The notes under the pieces were generated by a model, which saw nothing but the letters and a program-made list of their open reading frames with translations, was not told the DNA's origin and ran no database searches. From Humisphaera borealis (lineage in GTDB: Bacteria > Planctomycetota > Phycisphaerae > Tepidisphaerales > Tepidisphaeraceae): DNA of 64,000 bases. Position numbers and translations under genes: made by a program. The stretch spans positions 2,356,001 to 2,420,000 of the forward strand of contig NZ_CP063458.1 of the NCBI RefSeq assembly GCF_015169395.1, in the 5' to 3' direction. Position 1 is the stretch's first letter. Each line of letters starts with the position of its first letter. Shown here piece after piece: positions 40,992 to 46,391 of the stretch.

Positions 40992-41156
40992 GGTGGGGCA
41001 GGCATTCTTGCCTGCCGCGAGCCCGCGATGCCGGCATTCCTGCCGGCTTGAGCGGGATCGCAGCCGGACTTCGGTGACCGTTGTTTCGCATGACCTCAAC
41101 CGGGCAAGAATGCCCGGTCGAGGTCATGCGAGGCAGGCAAGAATGCCTGCCCCACC
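40992..41156. repeat. REP-doublet-like element, GTGGGGCAGGCA type, with nested hairpins
   Basis: The 25-bp arms 40992-41016 and 41132-41156 are perfect inverse complements, and each folds on itself (GGCAGGCA..TGCCTGCC). The interior contains GCCGGCATTCCTGCCGGC and a nested hairpin 41089-41128 (CATGACCTC..GAGGTCATG around CCGGGCAAGAATGCCCGG). It precedes the NfeD protease gene. The rest of 40867-41299 shows no gene. Confidence 0.88.
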
Positions 41157-41299
41157 ATGAAAGTAGGACTGAACGGTTACCCGGTGCGCCGGAGAAATCC
41201 GAAGCCCCAGCGGGGCGATTCAGTCTTCTGTTGTTTGAACTCGCATGGTTCAAAACGTTTGCCACGCTTATAATCCGCCGCTCCGGGCGGACCTACGAT

Positions 41300-42886
41300 A
41301 TGCTTTACCAACGAGGCGTCATCGTGCAGCAGTACCGCATTCACATTCTCGCGCTTTTCGCCCTGATCGCTTCGGCGGTGGTTCTGAACGCGCGCGGGGA
41401 ATCGCCTTCCACCCGGCCCGGTACCGCTGTCGCCTTGCCTGATGCGCCGACGCCGGCCGCCGTCATTCACATTAACGGCACCATCGACGACTTCACCGCC
41501 AGCCAACTCAAGGTTCGGTTTGGTCGTGCCAAGGCAGACGGCGCGAAGGTGGTCATCCTGTCGATTGAGACGTACGGCGGCCTGGTCACGTCGGGCCTGG
41601 ACATCTCGCGGTTTCTTAAAAACCAGCAGGATGTAAAGGTGATCGCGTTCGTGAACTCCAAGGCGATCTCGGCCGGGGCGATGATCGCGCTGGCCTGCAA
41701 CGAGATCGTCATGACGCCCAGCGGCACGCTCGGCGACTGTGCGCCGATTCAGGTCGGCCCCAACGGCGAAGCGGTTTCGATGGAACCTACCGAACGCAGC
41801 AAAGCCGAGAGCCCCGTGCTGTCGGATTTCCGCGAAAGCGCGCAGCGTAACGGCTACGACCCCCTGCTGGCCGTCTGCATGGTGTCGCTGCCCTACTCCG
41901 CGTATTGGATCGAAAACACGAGCGGCCAGCGCAAGTTCGTCGATGCGAACGACTACAAAACGCTCACCGCCAATGGCGACTGGAAGCCGGTCGCCGGCGA
42001 AGCCAACCCCGTTGACGGCCCGGAGACGTTGCTGACGCTTCACACCGAGCAGGCCGTCCGCTATGGCGTGGCCCGCGGCATCGCCACCAGCGCCGACGAC
42101 CTGGCCCGCCAGGCGAACCTGACGATCGTCGCCCGTTACGAGAACGGCTTCGGCCCGCAACTGATCGCGGTGCTCAGCTCGTCGATCACGCGGACACTGC
42201 TCATCGTCATTTTCTTCAATGCGCTGCTCGTCGCCCTCAAAACACCGGGCACCGGCGGGGCCGAGGCGATCGCGCTCATCAGCCTGTCGGTCCTGGTCGG
42301 CGTGCCCCTGCTCACCGGCTACGCCGAGTGGGGCGAGATCCTCATGATCATCGCCGGCATCGCATTGATCGCTTTCGAGATCTTCGTCTTCCCCGGGCAC
42401 TTCGTGTCGCTCATCGTCGGCGGATTGCTCGTGCTGGGCGGATTGATGCTGACCTTCGTCGGCGACGTCTGGCAGATTCCAGGCGGGTGGAGCATGCCCA
42501 AGAACTGGGACGCTTTGCAGACTTCGATCCACGTGACCGTGCTCGGACTGGTCTGCAGCGTGGTCCTTGCCAGCCTGCTACGGTCGTACCTGCCGAGCTT
42601 GCCCTACTTCAACAAGCTGATCCTGCCGCTACCCGACGGCGTGAAGAGCTCGACGGAAGAGCCCGCCGTCGCGTCCGACGCGGCGGAGACGGACCGCTGG
42701 CCATTCGTCGGCACGGTCGGCACGGCCGCGAGCGACCTGAAGCCCGGCGGTTCGGCACGCTTCCCCTATGGCGACGACAGCCGGGTGTCATCGGTGGTGT
42801 CGATCGACGGCTACGTGCCGGCGGGTTCGAAGCTGATCGTGCAGGAAGTCAGAGGCAACCAGGTGGTCGTCCGGGCGGTCGGGTAA
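41300..42886 (+). CDS. NfeD-type membrane serine protease (ClpP-class)
   Basis: A 528-residue membrane protein of the long NfeD class. A signal/anchor (HILALFALIASAVVL) precedes a ClpP/SppA-like protease domain, residues about 55-270, with nucleophile Ser124 (KAISAGAMIAL) and likely general base Lys168 (RSKAESPV), 44 residues apart, close to the spacing known for the P. horikoshii homologue. Four to five membrane helices follow (about 290-445), and residues about 455-528 form the NfeD OB-fold (GTVGTAASDLKPGGSARF). It should cleave membrane-bound partners of the flotillin encoded downstream. A GTG at 41324 with GAGGCG upstream is an alternative start. Confidence 0.92.
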   Translation: MLYQRGVIVQQYRIHILALFALIASAVVLNARGESPSTRPGTAVALPDAPTPAAVIHINGTIDDFTASQLKVRFGRAKADGAKVVILSIETYGGLVTSGLDISRFLKNQQDVKVIAFVNSKAISAGAMIALACNEIVMTPSGTLGDCAPIQVGPNGEAVSMEPTERSKAESPVLSDFRESAQRNGYDPLLAVCMVSLPYSAYWIENTSGQRKFVDANDYKTLTANGDWKPVAGEANPVDGPETLLTLHTEQAVRYGVARGIATSADDLARQANLTIVARYENGFGPQLIAVLSSSITRTLLIVIFFNALLVALKTPGTGGAEAIALISLSVLVGVPLLTGYAEWGEILMIIAGIALIAFEIFVFPGHFVSLIVGGLLVLGGLMLTFVGDVWQIPGGWSMPKNWDALQTSIHVTVLGLVCSVVLASLLRSYLPSLPYFNKLILPLPDGVKSSTEEPAVASDAAETDRWPFVGTVGTAASDLKPGGSARFPYGDDSRVSSVVSIDGYVPAGSKLIVQEVRGNQVVVRAVG

Positions 42887-42896
42887 TCGAGACTTT

Positions 42897-42972
42897 GTGG
42901 CATGGGCAAGTATTCTTGCCCGTGTCTGCGATCTCGACCGATCGCACGGGCATGAGTACATGCCCTCGCCAC
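42897..42972. repeat. REP-doublet-like element, GTGGCATGGGCA type (copy c)
   Basis: GTGGCATGGGCAAGTATTCT opens the left arm and CATGCCCTCGCCAC closes the right. Left arm folds as GGGCAAG..CTTGCCC. It fills the gap between the two nfeD genes and stops 14 bp before the second start codon. Confidence 0.85.
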
Positions 42973-42986
42973 AGAACGAGTATGCC

Positions 42987-43454
42987 ATGGAATCTCTTCT
43001 GATCCCCATCATCCTGTTCTCGATCGGAGCGGTCCTGATCGCGCTGGAGCTGTTCCTTCCCGGCGGCGTGCTTGGCGCGTTCGGCGGGCTGGCGATCGTC
43101 GCGGGTGTGGTGCTCTGCTTCTTCTACTCCGTCAACGCCGGCGCAGTGGCGATGGTGGCGCTGCTCATCCTCGGTCCGCTGGCCGGCTGGCTCTGGGTGA
43201 GCAATGCCCATCGGCTGCCGGGCGCGCGGTCGCTGTTCCTGAGCGGCACCGCCGACAACCGGCCCGCGACCCTGGTCGAGCCCCTTCGCATGGGACAACT
43301 GGGCATCGCCACCAGCGAACTGCGCCCCGGCGGGACCTGCGAGTTCGACGGCCAGCGCGTTCCCGCCCACAGCGAAGAAGGCATTGTCCCCGCGGGCTCG
43401 ACCGTCCGCGTGGTGGCTTTCGAAGACGGACGGGCTACAGTGCGGCCGGCTTAA
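42987..43454 (+). CDS. nfeD: Short NfeD protein (membrane anchor plus OB-fold)
   Basis: A 155-residue NfeD without protease domain. Two or three helices (LLIPIILFSIGAVLIALELF, GGLAIVAGVVLCFFY, GAVAMVALLILGPLAGWLW) lead to an OB-fold at about residues 90-155 with LRMGQLGIATSELRPGGTCE and GSTVRVVAFEDGRATVRPA. Short NfeD proteins are regularly encoded beside FloA/flotillin genes and are thought to bind them. The start at ATG 42987 follows the repeat; the in-frame codons from 42897 lie inside the repeat and are not coding. Confidence 0.92.
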   Translation: MESLLIPIILFSIGAVLIALELFLPGGVLGAFGGLAIVAGVVLCFFYSVNAGAVAMVALLILGPLAGWLWVSNAHRLPGARSLFLSGTADNRPATLVEPLRMGQLGIATSELRPGGTCEFDGQRVPAHSEEGIVPAGSTVRVVAFEDGRATVRPA

Positions 43455-43622
43455 AGAGACCGATTGAAGGACGAAGATTTAGGAATGAAGACCGCGATTC
43501 TTCCTCCAACATTCGCCGGTCGTCCGGTGAACACAGCTCGCGACTGAATCGACAACGAATCGAATCACGCTGAATCCGGCGGGCATTGCCCGCACTACCG
43601 CCTTGGGAAAGGAACATTGAAC

Positions 43623-44642
43623 ATGCACATTCTCGCTGAAGAAGGGTTCCAGTTCGGAACCGTCGTTGCCGTCTTTGTCGGCATTGTCATCCTCATTTTG
43701 CTGGCCGTTCTCGGCCAGTTCATGGGCATTTACATCCGAGCGATGGTCAGCGGAGCGCGAGTCAGCCTGCTCGATCTGCTGGGCATGCGGCTGCGAAAGG
43801 TGAACGCCAACGCGATCGTTAACGCCCGCATCCAGGCTCTGCGCGCTGGGCTGAATGTGACCACGCCGGAAATGGAATCGCACGTGCTCGCCGGCGGCGA
43901 CGTTCAGCGCGTTATCCTGGCGATGATCGCCGCGAACAAGGCCAACATCGAACTGCCCTGGCGTGTGGCGACGGGCATCGACCTGGCCGGGCGTGATATC
44001 CTCGACGCCGTCCAGACGAGCGTGAACCCCAAGGTGATCGACGTGCCCAACCCCGCGATGGGCCGCAGCACGATCGACGCCGTGGCCAAGAACGGCATTC
44101 AGCTCAAGGTCAAAGCCCGCGTGACGGTGCGGACGAACATCAATCAGCTCGTCGGTGGCGCCACCGAAGAGACGATCATCGCTCGCGTCGGTGAAGGCAT
44201 CGTGACGAGCATCGGCTCGGCGATCGACCACAGCGACGTGCTGGAAAACCCCGACCACATCTCCAAGGCCGTGCTCGCCAAGGGCCTGGACGCGAACACC
44301 GCGTTCACGATCCTGTCGATCGATATCGCCGATATCGATGTCGGTGAGAACATCGGTGCCAAGCTGCAGGCCGACAAGGCCGAGGCCGATAAGAAAACCG
44401 CGCAGGCCGAAGCCGAAAAGCGTCGCGCCATGGCCATCGCACAGGAGCAGGAAAACATCGCCGAGCAGGCGAAGAACCGCGCGCTGGTGGTGCTCGCCGA
44501 AGCCGAAGTGCCGCGGGCAATGGCCGAGGCCTTCCGCAGCGGCAACCTGGGCATCATGGACTACTACAAGATGAAGAACATGCAGGCCGATACCGGCATG
44601 CGCGAGGCAATCGCCAATCCCGGCGACGGCGTAAAGGGTTGA
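43623..44642 (+). CDS. floA: Flotillin-like protein FloA
   Basis: A 339-residue flotillin-like (UPF0365/YqfA) protein that scaffolds functional membrane microdomains. A membrane segment ([21 protein letters not shown]) is followed by the conserved domain ([47 protein letters not shown]) and the SPFH-like part ([21 protein letters not shown]). A coiled coil rich in Ala, Glu and Lys ([18 protein letters not shown]) spans about residues 245-300. The NfeD-NfeD-FloA order is classical. ATG 43623 has AAAGGA nine bases upstream; a TTG six bases earlier is too close to it. Confidence 0.96.
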
Positions 44643-44648
44643 TCTCGC

Positions 44649-44719
44649 GTGGCACGGCCCTTCCGGCCGTGATCCGCTCCGGTGGATCGATAAGCACTCG
44701 GGCAAGACGCCCGCGCCAC
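44649..44719. repeat. REP-doublet-like element, GTGGCACGGCC type
   Basis: GTGGCACGGCCCTTCCGGCC starts the left arm (palindrome CACGGCC..GGCCGTG). The right arm is CACTCGGGCAAGACGCCCG closing GCGCCAC, and a middle stem GATCC..GGATC separates them. The element begins seven bases after the floA stop and ends ten bases before the next start codon. Confidence 0.8.
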
Positions 44720-44729
44720 AGGACCAGTC

Positions 44730-45140
44730 ATGTTCGACTTCATCGTCAAGGCGATCGAGAAAGCCACCCGCGAAGCGCTGGAGCGCAACCGCCTGGCCAA
44801 CGGCGGTCCGCCGCCATTTGACCCGCGATTGCAGGCCGGCGATGTGCCACAGCGAGTTGGCGAGACGTCGCAGCGGGTCGTGTTGCAGGCATCGGAGCCG
44901 CCGGCGCGGAAGCCGCCGAGAAAACCGAAGAAGCCGAAATCCCAGAAGCCGGCCAATGCTCCGCCGCCCCTGCGTCAGCGTGTGCAAAGCCAGGCTGCGG
45001 CGGCCCGTGGCGATGCGACGCGGCCGGCATCTGCCAGCGCACAGACCATCGCGAATTGGGCGCAGCCTCGGACCCTGCGGGCGCAGTTCATCCTGACCGA
45101 GATCCTCAAACCGCCTCTGTCGATGCGGGAGCCACGGTGA
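44730..45140 (+). CDS. Unrecognised FloA-operon protein A with C-terminal QFILTE motif
   Basis: A 136-residue protein I do not recognise. The N-terminus (FDFIVKAIEKATREALERNR) is an amphipathic helix. The middle is basic and proline-rich (ARKPPRKPKKPKSQKP), probably disordered. The end, IANWAQPRTLRAQFILTEIL followed by KPPLSMR, is shared with protein B, whose start codon overlaps this stop (GTGA, 45137-45140). No membrane segment is visible. Position directly after floA and before B suggests a soluble partner of the NfeD/FloA complex (inference). There is no strong ribosome site, as a repeat ends ten bases before the ATG. Confidence 0.82.
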   Translation: MFDFIVKAIEKATREALERNRLANGGPPPFDPRLQAGDVPQRVGETSQRVVLQASEPPARKPPRKPKKPKSQKPANAPPPLRQRVQSQAAAARGDATRPASASAQTIANWAQPRTLRAQFILTEILKPPLSMREPR

Positions 45141-45937
45141 CTGTGTTGACCCTTGCCGACATCTTCGCCGCCAGTGCCTTGCTGACCGGTTCCGTGCCAG
45201 CCGCTTCAGTGTTGGCACGGTCATCGGAGACGGACTACGTCCAGCTCGTGTTCTTTGCGATCGTCGGGGTGATCTGGATCATCAGTGCGATCGTCAAGGC
45301 GGCCGGCAAGCAGGGGAAGACGACGCAGCAAACCTGGACGGGAGACGAGTGGCAGCCGGGCAGTCCGGACGGTGCACCACCGGTTTCAGCCCCCCCGCCG
45401 ACAGTCCCGCCGACGGCGTATGTTCCTCCACCGGCGTACGTCCCCCCGCCGACGCCGGTGACTCGACCGTCGCCACTCTCTACGAAGCAGGAAGCGCCGG
45501 CGTTTCGCGGTCAACAGGCGCAGGTCGTTGTCCCCCCGGAATGGCTGGGACAGGCCCGGCCTGCCGTGCAGCCTCCGCCGTTGCAGCCGGCGCCTTATGT
45601 CGTGCCGTACGCGCCGCCACCGGTCCCGCAGCAGGCGTATGTTCCGCCGCCCAGGCCCTCCGTCGCCCCGGCCCCGGTTGAATCGGTGTCGGCCGCGCAG
45701 CCGGCGTGGGGGAAGGTCGTTACCGGATACGAAACGGCGCGGGCGATCACAGCCGCCCCGGCACAAGCGAAGCAGGCGAAGCAGACACAGCAGCGCGAGG
45801 GAAAGGCCGCTTCGACGACACAGCAGCTCGACGCCGCCGCCATCCGCCGGTGGATGACGCCGTCGGTGATGAAGCAGCAGTTCATCCTGACCGAGATGTT
45901 TGATCCACCGCCGAGTGCGCGGCCGGAGCGACAATAG
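45137..45937 (+). CDS. Unrecognised FloA-operon protein B, membrane-anchored, QFILTE motif
   Basis: A 266-residue protein I do not recognise. I place the start at GTG 45137, which overlaps the stop of protein A by four bases and implies translational coupling; the frame also runs upstream to 45056 inside A. An N-terminal hydrophobic stretch (LADIFAASALLTGSV) and a clear membrane helix (VQLVFFAIVGVIWIISAIV, about residues 37-55) are followed by a long Pro/Val/Ala-rich linker (PPAYVPPPTPV). The end is IRRWMTPSVMKQQFILTEMF with DPPPSAR, matching protein A. It looks like a membrane-tethered version of A with an extended stalk. Confidence 0.82.
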   Translation: MTVLTLADIFAASALLTGSVPAASVLARSSETDYVQLVFFAIVGVIWIISAIVKAAGKQGKTTQQTWTGDEWQPGSPDGAPPVSAPPPTVPPTAYVPPPAYVPPPTPVTRPSPLSTKQEAPAFRGQQAQVVVPPEWLGQARPAVQPPPLQPAPYVVPYAPPPVPQQAYVPPPRPSVAPAPVESVSAAQPAWGKVVTGYETARAITAAPAQAKQAKQTQQREGKAASTTQQLDAAAIRRWMTPSVMKQQFILTEMFDPPPSARPERQ

Positions 45938-45968: not shown

Positions 45969-46391
45969 TCAGTGCACGTCAAACCCGACCGACTTGCCCT
46001 CTTTGCTCTCTCCCAGATAGCTGATGAAGATCTCATCCCCCTCGGCAATGTCCCGGCGGGCGTAGATTTCCAGGATGTCGGGGGAGTGGCGCTCGACGCG
46101 CGCATTGGGGTCGTGCGCGTGGTTGTAGATCGAGGCATACCCCAGCGCCAGCGCCACATAATCGCGCTTGGTCATCCCTTCCCACTCGAAGACGTACCAT
46201 GAGATGAATGTCGCCCGGCGGCTGATCTCGTTGTCGCCGAACACTTGCTGTTTGGGGATGAGCAACACCGGCACGCGCTCGATCAGCGTTCCTTCGGCGA
46301 TTGGCTTTAAGGCAAAAACACCTCGCCCGCCCTTGCCTCGGTTGTCGGCACGGCGGACTTCGATCAGGTCGGTTTGGCGGCAAAGGTGCAT
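45969..46391 (-). CDS. SET-domain protein
   Basis: A 140-residue protein consisting only of a SET domain, the fold of S-adenosylmethionine-dependent lysine methyltransferases. Motifs are GRGVFALKPIAEGTLIE at the start, the pseudoknot YNHAHDPNARVE (NH..PN) and GDEIFISYLGE with the catalytic-type Tyr. No post-SET cysteines are present. Bacterial SET proteins of this small type occur in several phyla; targets are mostly unknown, with ribosomal or DNA-binding proteins possible. It is convergent with protein B, 31 bp away. Confidence 0.9.
   Translation of the reverse strand: MHLCRQTDLIEVRRADNRGKGGRGVFALKPIAEGTLIERVPVLLIPKQQVFGDNEISRRATFISWYVFEWEGMTKRDYVALALGYASIYNHAHDPNARVERHSPDILEIYARRDIAEGDEIFISYLGESKEGKSVGFDVH

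Follow-up and report, generated by a model that had tools for sequence, protein, structure and literature searches.

A C-terminal peptide co-inherited with FloA marks two adjacent proteins of the Humisphaera borealis floA locus

The two genes that follow floA in the 64,000-nucleotide stretch of Humisphaera borealis DNA analysed here (the window) are tandem paralogues of a FloA-operon family, which we define by its C-terminal peptide, the tail. This family is widespread, has no Pfam or NCBIfam model and was previously unnamed. The tail gene is co-inherited with FloA and is essentially never found in FloA-lacking genomes. A common ending of the two proteins had been noticed in a sequence-only reading of this DNA; the pattern is real, and much wider than that reading had it.

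The floA locus and its two tail proteins

The genome with the window consists of one contig of 7.19 Mb. The locus extends over positions 41081-45937 of the window on the + strand, with the gene order NfeD1b, short NfeD, FloA, protein A and protein B:

41081-42886, + strand: nfeD1b, with a ClpP-like Ser-Lys protease domain, a membrane domain and an OB domain (PF25145, E 3.4e-28; PF24961, E 4e-14)
42960-43454, + strand: short nfeD, with membrane helices and an OB-fold 'partner-binding' domain (PF01957, E 1.8e-10; OB-type strands in the structure model)
43617-44642, + strand: floA, flotillin-like SPFH protein (PF12127, E 5.5e-146)
44730-45140, + strand: protein A, 136 aa, ATG start, no TM helix; same-genus orthologue in L004/L097
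45084-45137, + strand: C-terminal tail of protein A, QFILTEILKPPLSMREPR (tail profile; read-through model pLDDT)
45137-45937, + strand: protein B, 266 aa, GTG start, TM helix and Pro-rich linker
45239-45295, + strand: predicted single TM helix of protein B (hydropathy peak 2.95; positive charges after the helix)
45878-45934, + strand: C-terminal tail of protein B, QFILTEMFDPPPSARPERQ (tail profile; A-B BLASTP)

The nfeD1b ORF has 601 aa from a TTG start, and its real start is probably further inside; the catalytic Ser of its AISAGA motif was present in 95/98 aligned homologues. FloA scored above the cut-off of the NCBIfam model PRK13665. The sequence-only reading had placed A and B directly after nfeD-nfeD-floA with a GTGA overlap, and its coordinates are exact: Pfam supports all three upstream genes, 87 bp separate the floA stop from the protein A start, and the tetranucleotide at 45137-45140 is the exact overlap of the protein A stop with the protein B start. 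A longer TTG frame for protein B, from 45056, is also listed among the ORFs. From 42960 to 45137 of the window, NfeD, FloA and protein A share one reading frame, and in-frame floA-tail pairs also occur at many other loci. A SET-domain protein is encoded convergently with protein B (45969-46391, - strand; PF00856, E 9e-15).

The ending that had been described for both proteins, W..P..(L/M)..QFILTE(I/M)..PP.S.R, was recovered by two-sequence BLASTP (47% identity over 30 residues, E 5e-6), with E, P and R conserved in the last ~25 residues (QFILTEILKPPLSMR in A and QFILTEMFDPPPSAR in B). Across the whole 7.19-Mb genome the tail profile (A2) matched only two places, proteins A and B. The described difference between the two also holds, with one predicted TM helix and a proline-rich linker in B and no predicted TM helix in A (best 17-residue hydropathy 0.75); by the positive-inside rule, the C-terminus of B is predicted to be cytosolic. 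An IVKA string pointed out near the start of A and after the helix of B does occur in the two proteins, at residues 5-8 of A and 52-55 of B, but as a shared family motif it was rejected: its positions read LIIRAIEA and VGAAAKGL in the same-genus relative (L004), so it is not kept in the sister species, whereas the tail is.

Neither the two proteins nor the tail profile nor members from other phyla gave a meaningful match in Pfam, NCBIfam or PDB sequences, in agreement with the earlier statement that no named family covers the pair. At E <= 1, neither protein matched the NfeD family (PF01957, PF25145, PF24961), its OB-fold or its membrane domain, or an SPFH or flotillin domain in Pfam and NCBIfam. 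Weak matches, for instance to DUF2842, PP0621, ZipA and Borealin, were discarded, as they look like TM, composition or chance matches.

The tail as a family signature

Relatives with the same end were found in the same taxonomic family by a search with protein A. A first tail profile, built from 12 rows, was run on 150 genomes of the class, in which FloA was also searched; among the matches listed, 73 adjoin floA (<3 kb downstream, same strand) and include nearly all the strong ones, while 32 do not. A search of planctomycete genomes for the tail beside floA had been proposed in the sequence-only reading, and the refined profile was applied to 120 floA neighbourhoods of the class (Phycisphaerae). 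The tail was found at the C-terminus of the next ORF in 92/120 of them, and at least 20 of the remaining 28 genomes have a motif match elsewhere or at a contig edge. The 7,885 control ORFs taken from these loci gave a best E of 0.32, in a match that was not C-terminal, which places the tail far above chance.

These counts already refute the reading in which low-complexity ORFs of GC-rich DNA share a chance or repeat-derived end, a reading to which we give practically no credence. The linkers are indeed low-complexity and Pro-rich, but the control ORFs were negative, and many phyla, among them the Bacillota with their AT-richer codons, show this end at the same position; the E value reaches down to 1e-22 for one genome.

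The tail consensus is LR.A(I/V)(I/V)L.E(I/L)(L/F).PP.(A/S)LR, with E conserved at 98%, P at 97% and R at 95%, and the strongest constraint on the family is on the last ~18 residues. A tail variant, EIL.RP.(R)W or similar in place of EIL.PP.ALR, was observed in Pirellulales/Planctomycetia-type genomes (L283, L291, L298, L310 and L312). A role as a general sorting tag carried by many proteins was rejected for the tail, given that most tail genomes have one match; the window genome has two, and so does the distant family f85, with an independent TAIL-TAIL tandem.

Co-inheritance with FloA in Planctomycetota

Presence and absence were counted in 294 genomes of the phylum at a tail threshold of E <= 0.01. 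Of the genomes with the tail, 164 also have FloA and 3 lack it (Fisher 2e-22). Those three are incomplete assemblies (72-79% complete), with the tail at a contig edge in at least two. Phylum-wide, 82/103 placeable tail matches lie <=4.5 kb downstream of floA, at a median of 593 bp, and the commonest arrangement was NfeD1b-NfeD-FloA-TAIL (71/140 loci). NfeD proteins co-occur with nearly all the tails.

The tail tracks floA both in position and in presence/absence, which bears out the earlier suggestion that A and B extend the FloA/NfeD system. Occurrences of the motif at places unrelated to floA were examined as well, and that suggestion stands, the displaced Phycisphaerae genes being in FloA-bearing genomes.

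Protein architecture

The usual form of the protein is predicted to consist of one N-out/C-in TM helix, a variable low-complexity linker and the conserved C-terminal peptide of ~18 residues. One strong TM segment, typically near the N-terminus, was found in 104/127 members and none in 23/127. The tail is predicted to be cytosolic because positive charge follows the helix in 98/104 TM-bearing members. The single N-out/C-in helix, predicted for B and not for A, is common in the family but does not define it; the constant of the family is the tail, not the anchor.

The TM-less exceptions are of two kinds: A-type copies, whose start is amphipathic, and a group drawn mainly from family f5 that has a conserved soluble helical module. 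In this f5-type group the module DP.QLA..IL.G..SI..LA.EQARRRAA replaces the TM segment at the N-terminus and the tail is kept; loci with it, mostly of f5, include L100, L108, L114, L121, L126, L131, L141, L144, L157 and L161. The A/B pair itself is a tandem duplication kept in the genus; in the sister species each copy has its own orthologue.

Distribution in other phyla and the yqfB slot of Bacillota

The family is wider than the planctomycetes. A survey of FloA loci from named genomes outside that group revealed a tail gene behind floA in Desulfobacterota, Verrucomicrobiota, Spirochaetota, Hydrogenedentota and a Peptococcaceae, and one was also found in anammox planctomycetes; KSB1 and Chlamydiae have weak or diverged tail forms. 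Whole-genome searches of these other-phylum genomes gave one tail match each, nearly throughout. FloA is present in Bacteroidota, where neither the FloA loci nor whole-genome searches yielded a tail gene.

Among 119 Bacillota genomes, 84 of them FloA-positive, the tail was found in 39, all with FloA, and in none without it (Fisher 5e-8). The matches lie 115-1120 bp behind floA in 39/40 cases, the exception being a genome with its floA at a contig end; where one genome carries two floA genes, each is followed by a tail. Another 20 floA loci of Bacillota were read, largely from threshold-negative genomes; an ORF of this kind occupies the next slot in 20/20, nearly always with a TM helix and a linker and mostly with a diverged tail. 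A 54-residue version that is almost the tail alone, with no TM segment and no long linker, lies directly behind floA in two Bacillota loci (L349, 1109-1270, and L350).

In four loci (L351, L357, L358 and L366) the family member lies between floA and a yqfC-like gene, which is the position of B. subtilis YqfB; in L357 and L366 this next gene belongs to the YabP family (PF07873). The B. subtilis operon has the order yqeZ-yqfA-yqfB-yqfC-yqfD, where yqfA is floA, and is regulated by sigma-W (PMC3498285; PMC8144471), and yqeZ-floA-yqfB is known for sublancin resistance (PMC8144471). The comparison with B. subtilis YqfB is by gene position, in the slot behind floA and before the yqfC/YabP-family gene, and suggests a possible reason for the three genes of the yqeZ-floA-yqfB operon. 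The E. coli protein of the same name is an unrelated ASCH-domain amidohydrolase (PMC6972931).

Proposed docking on FloA and alternative readings of the tail

We lean, by a modest degree, towards the view that the membrane-anchored tail protein docks on cytosolic FloA via its C-terminal peptide. The anchor would keep the protein at the membrane, the linker would serve as a flexible cytosolic tether, and the terminal helix-Pro-Pro-ALR peptide would dock on the cytosolic part of FloA (the SPFH cage or its coiled-coil). Anchored in this way, the protein could keep the FloA-NfeD assembly in place, position it or regulate it, or could deliver membrane clients to it. After the duplication in the genus, copy B would have retained the TM anchor, and copy A would have lost it and become a basic soluble binder of the same site.

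Since NfeD, FloA and A are in one frame, their natural read-through could be folded as a single AlphaFold2 chain, together with 45 other read-through rows. The tail helices of the window model had pLDDT values of about 69-85, with about 82-85 for the tail of A, and the preceding linker <50. In a Desulfobacteraceae FloA+tail read-through without NfeD, the tail helix reached 86-89, against about 41 in the linker. A confident tail helix beside a disordered linker is the picture expected of docking, but a self-folded helix may suffice to produce it, and high pLDDT can stem from a conserved amphipathic helix alone. Comparison of the model structures with the PDB matched the SPFH and OB parts and gave nothing bearing on the tail. 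Mutual information between FloA and the tail showed no clear rise above permutations, and may track clades. The Bacteroidota, which carry FloA without a tail protein, are a counterpoint to the docking reading.

FloA, rather than NfeD1b, is favoured as the constant partner by three sets of genomes: the f50 lineage has NfeD1b, lacks FloA and has no clear tail; lineage f67 keeps FloA and the tail despite a protease-dead NfeD1b; and family f47 has floA-tail pairs with no detected adjacent NfeD (L230-L233). In f67 the catalytic Ser of NfeD1b is lost, SAGA being changed to HGAA or QGAA (L330, 1293-3416; L331, 1313-3412), and NfeD1b and the short NfeD appear to be fused into a single ORF that has two OB domains. 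Loss of NfeD1b from this lineage was considered and rejected in favour of the protease-dead form.

It is unlikely, though worth weighing, that the tail docks instead on the OB fold of NfeD (the short NfeD or the NfeD1b C-terminus), in which case the protein would be an NfeD adaptor linked to FloA only through the NfeD-FloA partnership. NfeD is in the same operon at most loci, with the full NfeD1b-NfeD-FloA-TAIL order in about half (71/140), and Pfam labels the OB fold a partner-binding domain. In the cryo-EM structure of S. aureus FloA-NfeD the OB domain is on the cytosolic side (PMC11222466). However, the f47 pairs and the f50 lineage are at odds with this reading, and the tail helix is also confident in the model without NfeD.

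Far less probable is a role of the tail as substrate or regulator of the NfeD1b Ser-Lys protease, in the manner of the hydrophobic C-terminal stretch of archaeal stomatin. In PH1511 this stretch is cut by PH1510 at VIVL|MLPM (PMC3795559), a site that A(I/V)(I/V)L..(I/L)L.PP loosely resembles; NfeD1b is in the same operon, and its dyad is kept in about 95/98. But the predicted cytosolic location of the tail conflicts with a protease domain that, we infer, follows an N-terminal secretion-type segment. Moreover, f67 retains the tail with the NfeD1b Ser changed to H or Q, and the motif ends a few residues from the C-terminus, which leaves little to release. The tail location and f67 likewise disfavour the processing site for the Ser-Lys protease that the sequence-only reading had offered.

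Like NfeD, these proteins would be membrane-anchored FloA partners of the same operon. Unlike NfeD, A and B have no OB fold and no PF01957, PF25145 or PF24961 domain; their TM helix is single or absent, and they consist of a disordered linker ending in a peptide. The FtsZ C-terminal peptide and the SSB C-terminal tip also follow the plan of a disordered linker that ends in a short conserved docking peptide. The likeness is in architecture only and no membership is claimed, as the sequences and partners are other ones. A 2009 survey of SPFH proteins places a third gene of unknown function in the Thermus SPFH5 (FloA) operon, beside FloA and NfeD (PMC2636767). Compared by description, that gene is presented, in the part of the survey concerned with it, without a tail motif or family.

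Relocated tail genes and the heme-type ABC ATPase

In Phycisphaerae lineages where floA has no such neighbour, the tail gene is elsewhere and FloA is still in the genome. At 11/14 off-floA tail loci the gene lies directly behind an ABC ATPase gene, and the other 3 are contig ends. Seven of these ATPases were scanned, and their best NCBIfam model was the heme ATPase PRK13548, below its cut-off. Several Phycisphaerae lineages have the gene beside a heme-type ABC ATPase and not beside floA, so FloA may not be the sole partner. This neighbourhood is a lead towards heme or iron-chelate import, not proof of it. FloA is needed by a heme permease of S. aureus, IsdF, for which FhuC supplies the energy (PMC10147376).

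The tail protein could accordingly be read as a metal-chelate or heme uptake adaptor that ties flotillin microdomains to an ABC importer of the FecCDE/HmuV type, with the copies next to floA serving importers encoded elsewhere; we hold this to be improbable. The ATPase neighbours with PRK13548 as best model and the dependence of IsdF on FloA (PMC10147376) speak for it. On the other side, one relocation shared by related orders may account for these loci, and no importer gene was spotted around floA in the window.

Work on B. subtilis and S. aureus has treated FloA-NfeD microdomains as two-component systems. We tentatively propose, with rather less than even confidence in the whole, that the tail protein is a third core component of bacterial flotillin microdomains, a membrane-tethered adaptor whose tail peptide plugs into the FloA assembly, and that it has been re-used in some lineages to link FloA with a heme or iron-chelate ABC importer. 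A third protein that is strictly co-inherited with FloA, and whose C-terminal peptide is short and mutable, would offer a direct handle on how the FloA assembly is anchored or fed with clients, and the tail profile could name presently unnamed proteins across many phyla.

The loci with the tail gene directly behind a heme/FecE-type ABC ATPase gene are L064-L069 and L071-L076. At some of them, genes for a FecCD permease and a binding protein lie upstream, with a gene for a macro-domain protein or a biotin carboxylase on the downstream side.
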